From assembly GCA_964023275.1 (NCBI GenBank), contig OZ029915.1, positions 38,319,073 to 38,383,072 of the forward strand: a stretch of DNA of 64,000 nucleotides, given 5' to 3'. This document shows, in pieces, positions 4,100-60,999 of this stretch. The notes beneath the pieces are model-generated. The model ran no database searches and was not told the origin of the DNA. It was given only the letters and a program-made list of their open reading frames with translations. This stretch comes from Norana najaformis (taxonomy: Eukaryota; Annelida; Clitellata; Crassiclitellata; Hormogastridae). Position numbers and translations under genes: made by a program. The first letter of the stretch is position 1. Every line of letters starts with the position of its first letter.

Positions 4100-18933
<14,834 letters not shown>

Positions 18934-23860: not shown

Positions 23861-24679
23861 GCAGTTTTATAATCAAATATGGGGCGAAGTGGGCGGTTAG
23901 GACAGAACCAGATATTTCGAATACAGAGGAGAATCAGGAGATTACTAATCCTTATAATCTTTCAACCAAACAAGACACAAAATAACGGCCATCTTGGCCG
24001 CCGAACATCTATAGCAAGTACATGTATGTGTTGTAGGTATATTATACTGAAAGATTTCTAAAATTTCTCAAGTGCTATCATATACAACCCAGGCGCATGA
24101 CTCCAATTTAACGCACGAATGTGTATGCAGTAAGATTTATTTATTTAAAATGAGCACATTCACATCCATACTTTATAGCTACTAGGGCCCTATTGTGCTA
24201 AAAATAACGAGGCCTACACGTATTGTAGTCTACAGTTCGGAACTTGTACCTATCTATGCAGGTCAATTCACAGTGCGTCAAGGCTCCAGCCTACCACCGT
24301 ACGGGAGACATTTGTCTAGGCCTATATTTCTTGGCTGGTGCATGCAACGTTGTTAGCCATTTCGATGTTGTAGTCGTCCGTTTGGCTGAAATACAATGAA
24401 AACGAATAGTTAACTGCTCTGTAGGCCTATGTATTCGTACAAAAACATGATACCATTTAAGAAATTATCAAAATGCTGATTATCGTCCTACGATTGCTCA
24501 ACAGTAGGTAGGCCTATACAGTTTGAGTAGGCTACTAAGATTTGATCCACTTTTGTTCAGATATACCGGTCTTAGAAGAATAATGACCCGCACTTTGCGT
24601 CAGCGAAAGATGTATAACTTGCCATCGAGCACAAACTCAAAGCATTTCTAAGGATTGGTGCGTAGGACTCTCACCGTTG

Positions 24680-25066: not shown

Positions 25067-25582
25067 TTATATACATACTTTACAAGGGACTGGAGATCGA
25101 CGAACTGGACTGAAAGAGTCAATCCGACGACGAAGACCAGAGTCAAACAGCGGAACAGACCGATCAAAGCCACCCACCGAGGAGGAGTCAAGCGCTGGTC
25201 CATCTCTTTCCGCTCTAGCGTGGCTAAGGCCAGAACGGGCGAATGGGTTAAAGGCATCCGTCCGATGTTGCAACTGAGCCTGCTGCTGCTGCTGCTGCAT
25301 TCTCTGCATCGCCAGCATCAGCAGCAACCCCTTCACCGAAGGCGCCGCCTCCTCTGGCTGCCCAACGCCCAGGCCGGTGCGGTCTCCCACCGCCGCTGGT
25401 TCCCTGTCGCTGGCCTCGACCGCCCTCTTCCCGGCGAAATGGACAGCGCTGCAGCGGCAGACGTTGCCTCCGCGGCCCCAAGTGCAGAGGTTCTGGCAGT
25501 AGGCCGAGTACTCGAGGGTGTCGTTGGCGAAGACGCAGATAGACAGGAAGTAGACGACGACGCCGAGGGTGCAGCACTTCAT
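25067..25582 (-). CDS. Putative secreted neuropeptide-like precursor with four-Cys amidated peptide
   Basis: 171 codons if unspliced. I chose the ATG at 25582 because it starts a typical signal peptide, MKCCTLGVVVYFLSICVFA, with A at -3 of the codon. The predicted mature peptide (residues 20-50) begins NDTLEYSAYCQNLC and ends NVCRCSAVHFA. It is followed by GKR, an amidation and dibasic cleavage site. Cys spacing is C-x3-C-x8-C-x-C. The rest is a spacer with a Gln run (MQQQQQQ), a few basic sites and FSPVRR. A GTATGT donor-like site at 25078 means a 3' exon is possible; otherwise the frame stops four codons later. I do not recognise the family. Coding GC is higher than its surroundings, and a TATA/initiator pair lies upstream. 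Confidence 0.65.
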   Translation of the reverse strand: MKCCTLGVVVYFLSICVFANDTLEYSAYCQNLCTWGRGGNVCRCSAVHFAGKRAVEASDREPAAVGDRTGLGVGQPEEAAPSVKGLLLMLAMQRMQQQQQQAQLQHRTDAFNPFARSGLSHARAERDGPALDSSSVGGFDRSVPLFDSGLRRRIDSFSPVRRSPVPCKVCI

Positions 25583-25844: not shown

Positions 25845-25875
25845 TGCGTTGGCCGTCATTTCCTCGGCCTTTATA
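25845..25875 (-). promoter_or_regulatory. TATA box and initiator for the peptide gene
   Basis: TATAAAG at 25875-25869 and an initiator-like GCAGTT with its A at 25845, exactly 30 nt downstream, on the minus strand. The implied 5' UTR is about 263 nt. Confidence 0.6.
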
Positions 25876-48926: not shown

Positions 48927-58451
<9,525 letters not shown>

Positions 58452-59835: not shown

Positions 59836-60960
59836 GGTTGTATTGTGTTGTATTTGATAACCTATATAGCGCTTCTTACAGAACAAACTACTCAGAAGCA
59901 CTTCCAGCATGAGAGCCCCTCGGAAATAAGAACTACTTTAAACAACGAGCTGACTGAGCTCTATTAACAACAGTGACCCCAGCACGAAGCGATAGAGGAA
60001 GTTCATTCCAGAGAGATGGGCCAACAACAGAAAAAGCTCCCTGCTGAGCAAGAGAGGACTTAAAACAAGGCACAAATAGATCTATACGATCTAAAGAACG
60101 TAAAGGGTGGGATGCGGTACTAGAGTGTGGAGGCCGAATAAGATCACAAAGATATTTTGGAGTCTGGCCCATGCGGGCTCTTATTACCAGTGATAATAGT
60201 TTAAACTGAATACGAGATTGGATAGGGAGCCAATGAAGTTGCTGAATTATGTAATCAGAGATATGAGAGAAACAAGGCCGCAGGATTTAGTACTGATTGA
60301 AGGGAAGACAGTCGATACTTAGGCAAACCAGCAAGTACAGAGTTGCAGTAGTCAATGCGACAGCATATCATGGCATGAATCATAGTAGTAAAGACAGAGA
60401 AAGAAACAGAATGACGAACAACTCTTAAGCGCCTTAGTTGGTAGTAACAAGACCGAGTCAAACTAGGAACATGGTTTGCGAAGGTAAGGTTACAGTCAAG
60501 TATGACGCCCAGGTTACGAACAATAGACGAAAACATAAAATAGGGGAAAGCTTCAGATAAACAAGAGTAGTCAATCTGAGCCAGACGGTATTTAGAACCA
60601 AACCAGATCAACTGAGTCTTAGCAGGATTAAGGGGAAGACGATTGCAGGACATCCAATGTTGAGTATCGTGAGTAAGGGCATCAATCTTACCAACAAGAG
60701 CAAGTTGTGCAGATGGAGGTCCCTGAACAAAAGCCTGGACATCATCAGCGTACAAATGACCAACAGCCAAGTGTTTAGTAAAGAGGGAAGGGATATCAGC
60801 AGTATACAAAATGTATAAAAGAGGACCAAGGACAGAGCCCTGGGGAATACCAATATCAACTTTAACCCAGGATGTACGGGAGTCCCCAAGAATAACCATC
60901 TGTGTTCGACCACTAAGATAAGAATGAAACCTATAGCCTGCTTTAATCATCATGCAGTCT
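59836..60960 (-). mobile_element. LINE with YADD reverse transcriptase, family D, 5'-truncated
   Basis: 60953-60255 encodes 232 aa of RT: GIPQGSVLGPLLYILYTADI, LYADDVQAF (the YADD active site), NRLPLNPAKTQLIWFGSKYR, LGVILDCNLTFANHV. The frame is lost about 60255 and resumes in another at 60172 with MGQTPKYLCDLIRPPHSSTA, then FSVVGPSLWNELPLSLRAG. The terminus is AAGCGCTATATAGGTTATCA plus an AATAC-rich tail at 59836-59850. CR1/L2-like by motif order. Dead: 5'-truncated and frameshifted. Confidence 0.9.
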
Positions 60961-60999
60961 GCTGGTGTTCCTTCTTTCCTGCATCTGTTTTAAAATAAT

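Follow-up and report, generated by a model that had tools for sequence, protein, structure and literature searches.

Introduction

HFAamide, or HFAa, is a neuropeptide precursor family defined in the annelid Platynereis and counted among the lophotrochozoan-specific proneuropeptides, a proneuropeptide being recognized by a signal peptide together with a basic cleavage site (PMC3890597, in its passages on these precursors). HFAamide expression has been described in neurons of Platynereis larvae, and the in situ signal for HFAa is reported in 3-day-old larvae only, with none at 2 days (PMC5747525). The oyster HFAamide, Cragi-HFAamide, is expressed mainly in larval stages (PMC8398477), and HFAamide is also listed for nemerteans, brachiopods, and phoronids (PMC8557429, section 5).

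Here, we describe a gene for a candidate member of this family. It lies in a stretch of 64,000 nucleotides (positions 38319073-38383072 of contig C3), referred to below as the window, and its relatives were sought in the genome to which the window belongs (608,420,607 bases in 17 contigs). Unless a contig is named, positions are those of the window.

Organization of the Precursor Gene

The precursor frame opens with an ATG at 25582 on the minus strand, closes with a stop codon ending at 25067, and encodes 171 amino acids. Its features are as follows:

25067..25582, minus strand: precursor reading frame, 171 residues and stop (full-length match to itself and matches to three paralogues in the same genome)
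25526..25582, minus strand: predicted signal peptide, residues 1-19, MKCCTLGVVVYFLSICVFA (hydropathy peak at residues 8-17; probable cleavage after VFA)
25433..25525, minus strand: predicted 31-residue four-cysteine peptide ending in AVHFA-amide (core kept in all four genes and under purifying selection)
25424..25432, minus strand: Gly-Lys-Arg amidation and dibasic cleavage site (GKR in three of four genes, GRR in one)
25070..25423, minus strand: poorly conserved spacer (BLASTP and permissive comparison with the nearest paralogue)
25073..25081, minus strand: possible splice donor, AAA/GTATGT, at the frame end (score 6.7 on approximate donor frequencies; fourth best in the scanned stretch)
25869..25875, minus strand: TATAAAG, a possible core promoter that precedes the ATG by about 290 bases (such strings occur at chance frequency)

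The hydrophobic N-terminal segment, VVVYFLSICV, has a mean hydropathy of 2.83, and it is hydropathy only, rather than a dedicated signal-peptide predictor, that marks it as a signal sequence. The predicted peptide, NDTLEYSAYCQNLCTWGRGGNVCRCSAVHFA, has 31 residues with the spacing C-x3-C-x8-C-x-C and stands directly before GKR. A run of six glutamines, QQQQQQ, occupies positions 25280-25297 within the spacer.

The putative donor falls just before the stop codon, and an intron using it would begin at about 25078. The sense strand was searched for a shared second exon over about 20 kb for each paralogue and about 6 kb for the window gene, with no convincing result; among the matches listed, those beyond exon 1 are all short resemblances between pairs of loci, the best with E 2.8e-5 over 23 residues, and were taken for repeats. 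With a fair donor match ahead of the stop codon and no convincing exon to follow it, the C-terminal end of the precursor is uncertain; the predicted peptide lies well inside the exon. Strings of the TATAAAG type are no commoner in the window than chance predicts (15 found vs 15.35 expected), and the first downstream AATAAA on the minus strand is at 24140-24145.

Paralogues and Selection on the Peptide Core

Three paralogues of the window gene are dispersed in the genome, with frames of 132-217 amino acids measured from stop to stop:

C1:7388508, plus strand: paralogue, E 5.2e-14
C9:1886937, minus strand: paralogue, E 2.1e-9
C1:23695351, minus strand: paralogue, E 1.3e-7

The family has at least four members, as counted with four single-sequence queries in a search that scores the best candidates only and uses no profile. 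Two further matches were rejected as a fifth paralogue, one on C12 (E 0.77) that lacks the cysteine pattern and one on C10 (E 0.18) that also lacks it and lies in a frame that appears EGF-like by eye.

All four genes encode a hydrophobic N-terminus, judged by hydropathy only, followed by a common core, which reads TLEYSAYCQNLCTWGRGGNVCRCSAVHFAGKR in the window gene and SFEYNAYCQKLCLWGRGGNLCKCNAVHFVGKR, TFEYISYCDNVCKWGKGGNLCKCTAGHFIGRR, and SFEQVAYCRKLCLRGLGGNLCQCNVIHFAGKR in the three paralogues. The order C-x3-C-x8-C-x-C is kept in every gene, with just four cysteines per core, and 14 of the 33 core columns are invariant, including the four cysteines, GGN, HF, and the glycine and arginine of the amidation and cleavage site. 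The peptide ends in HFA in two of the four genes and in HFV and HFI in the others. Together, the four sequences give the profile E-x3-Y-C-x3-C-x2-G-x-GGN-x-C-x-C-x3-HF-x-amide.

The core is under purifying selection: over its 32 codons (Nei-Gojobori method), pairwise dN is 0.19-0.45, while dS is 1.35-2.41 in five of the six pairs and not computable in the sixth. Against the nearest paralogue, the window protein aligns in BLASTP over residues 6-54 at 57% identity; a permissive comparison extends the alignment to 80 residues at 45%, with weak similarity in the spacer. Selection thus maintains the peptide more than the spacer.

An initial annotation of the frame had proposed a signal peptide, a 31-residue peptide with this cysteine spacing, a GKR site, and a spacer with a glutamine run, and the translation agrees with each of these, the signal peptide by hydropathy. 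Its reading of the gene as a peptide prohormone is borne out by the three paralogues, which share the hydrophobic N-terminus, the four cysteines, a GKR or GRR site, and the purifying selection.

The Host Genome

The host is an annelid, because its genome contains a close match to haemoglobin linker chain L1, further matches to Eryth_link_C, and a myomodulin-type precursor. Eryth_link_C, the linker domain of annelid haemoglobins, is matched 29 times in this genome by Pfam and not once in the 14 control genomes, a weak control in that the named ones are prokaryotes. A frame of 126 amino acids matches linker chain L1 (2gtl_M, presumably from the earthworm Lumbricus) with E 1.7e-56 over residues 3-126, and a precursor on C9 carries repeated PV-x-LLRMGKR units of the myomodulin type. 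An FMRFamide query returned three weak matches, of which the myomodulin gene accounts for two and C4 for the third. A TTAGGG-type telomere repeat stands at one of six contig starts, that of C3 (92 CCCTAA in 4000 bases, of which 2500 are N); a telomere of this type argues against an arthropod. The host is probably a clitellate, earthworm-like annelid.

Two side observations concern the same genome. A dense cluster of Eryth_link_C matches of the haemoglobin-linker type, drawn from the 29 found genome-wide, spans about 160 kb at C5:36718918-36879561. Decayed, ambiguous nuclear copies of mitochondrial COX1 are found at C15:412069-412726 and C15:570464-571281; PF00115 also matched 8 of the 14 controls, which is normal for COX1. 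An echinoderm host, entertained on reading these copies, was rejected in favor of an annelid one on the strength of the linker matches and the myomodulin-type precursor.

Probable Assignment to the HFAamide Family

The window peptide ends in AVHFAGKR, i.e., exactly in HFA-amide, the ending that the family name implies, and the host phylum, given by the haemoglobin-linker match and the myomodulin-type precursor, lies within the HFAamide range. The general proneuropeptide features of a signal peptide and a basic cleavage site (PMC3890597) are found in all four genes, the signal peptide by hydropathy. HFAamide is distributed across lophotrochozoans, and an annelid should therefore have one. The window gene is very probably a lophotrochozoan HFAamide precursor, as identified by its three-residue ending and its phylum rather than by comparison with the cysteine pattern of a reference member. 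The initial annotation had allowed for a described family that it did not recall, and this was very probably right; its heading of the precursor as unrecognized probably does not stand, on the grounds of the HFA-amide ending and annelid origin and not of a sequence comparison.

Against the assignment, just two of the four genes have the HFA ending, a survey across the molluscs (PMC6425005) nowhere uses the word HFA in its main text, and Pfam returned no match at E 10 for any of the four members. Pieces of the core, searched as strings in the main texts of papers, led to no printed HFAamide sequence and no relevant paper. There is some possibility, though a limited one, that the four genes form a separate two-disulfide amidated hormone family of annelids, or else a lineage-specific expansion of HFAamide in which the HFA, HFV, and HFI endings serve different receptors. 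It is improbable that they are a distinct family of secreted annelid peptide hormones with an HFA ending by coincidence: the two members with other endings, the lack of an aligned reference sequence, and the fruitless string searches would fit such a family, but the ending is precisely that of the family name, HF is invariant in all four genes, and HFAamide is reported across the lophotrochozoans.

With the HFAamide assignment, a precursor that had no place gains a probable family and a working profile built from four sequences. Having four natural variants from a single annelid would aid a receptor screen; otherwise, this is ordinary genome annotation.

Predicted Processing and Function

By analogy with other prohormones, the product would be a single-peptide neuropeptide or peptide-hormone precursor that enters the regulated secretory pathway. 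Cleavage at Lys-Arg would be the work of a prohormone convertase and a carboxypeptidase, the exposed glycine would be converted to an amide, and two disulfides would form within the 31-residue peptide; cleavage, amidation, and disulfide formation are standard steps of prohormone processing. The stored peptide would then be released from neurons or gland cells and act on a cell-surface receptor, probably a G protein-coupled receptor (GPCR); we infer this release and receptor action from the nature of the precursor. The literature passages on the family name no HFAamide receptor, and many lophotrochozoan-restricted peptides are described as having no known receptor (PMC8557429, section 15).

Single-sequence AlphaFold2 modeling of 30 residues (the core and the glycine) gives a hairpin with strands at 7-15 and 18-26, predicted with modest confidence (mean pLDDT 72.1, pTM 0.28). 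The hairpin is a point in favor of an antimicrobial or defence peptide, amidated and with two disulfides, rather than a signalling peptide, and antimicrobial peptides such as tachyplesin likewise include small cysteine-rich amidated peptides located directly behind the signal peptide. Such a role is nonetheless very improbable: the cores carry a low net positive charge, about +1 to +2 by our own count, the core, with its ending, has stayed strongly conserved since these old paralogues diverged, and no Pfam antimicrobial family matches.

Genomic Neighborhood

GC content across the window peaks in the 2-kb bin that holds the gene (0.487 vs 0.333-0.441 in the other bins), and long overlapping frames are present there on both strands. 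The four-cysteine spacing followed 3-7 residues on by G[KR][KR] is present once in the window and absent from all 60 simulated windows, and the spacing alone occurs twice vs 0.13 times per simulated window. A functionless chance frame, such as the high GC content and overlapping frames might favor, is effectively refuted, decisively because three paralogues elsewhere in the genome conserve the core, with dN well below dS, and also by the absence of the motif from the simulated windows.

Other features recorded in the window are:

4103-18933, minus strand: protein kinase exons, on the strand of the peptide gene and downstream of it
13484-13771, 15266-15559, and 15780-16112, minus strand: Pkinase matches (Pfam)
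18622-18933, minus strand: start of the kinase, which resembles a salt-inducible kinase
51196-51441, minus strand: GPR180/TMEM145 transmembrane exon (E 2.3e-11)
60258-60989, minus strand: reverse-transcriptase piece (E 9.4e-10)

Arrays of a 15-base unit lie in opposite orientation at 6769-6889 and 7610-7746 (GGACAATAACCCCCT / GGGGGGTAATTGTCC) and flank broken frames on the minus strand at 7053-7502. The arrangement resembles a transposon whose inverted ends enclose MULE-like pieces, but the three pieces had no Pfam match at E 0.1. Rfam, run over the whole window at gathering thresholds, found nothing.

Comparison with Described Peptide Families

Endothelin also has four cysteines arranged as a C-x3-C and a C-x-C pair, but its spacing, C-x-C-x7-C-x3-C as given in the initial annotation, is the reverse order, and the window peptide has an amidated end. 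A relation was rejected on the reversed cysteine order in all four genes and the lack of a Pfam match; the likeness is coincidence, as the initial annotation had guessed.

CS-alpha-beta toxins and defensins have six or more cysteines, with C-x3-C and C-x-C. Scorpion alpha-toxins of this fold share short look-alikes with the family in the profile search (YC-x2-LC and GN-x-C-x-C), but the core has four cysteines in all four members, short of six, and length and processing differ. In the search of the four-member profile against the PDB, CO dehydrogenase was best (E 0.24); the scorpion alpha-toxins, a single related group that makes up six of the seven profile matches, have E 1.7-5.4, which is chance level, and the relation was rejected, as was a chance-level match to lactoferrin (PDB, E 1.1).

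CCWamide and agatoxin-like peptides resemble the window peptide in being cysteine-rich and amidated and in coming from a single-peptide protostome precursor; they have a W-amide ending and more cysteines. The two are described as orthologous to each other (PMC8557429).

The HFAamide proneuropeptides of lophotrochozoans, such as Platynereis HFAa and Cragi-HFAamide, compare with the window gene in the annelid host, the signal peptide, and the amidated HFA C-terminus, and the annelid described here may differ in having four paralogues, of which two end in HFV and HFI. What is mildly new is that a single annelid has four such genes, two with HFA endings and the others with HFV and HFI.
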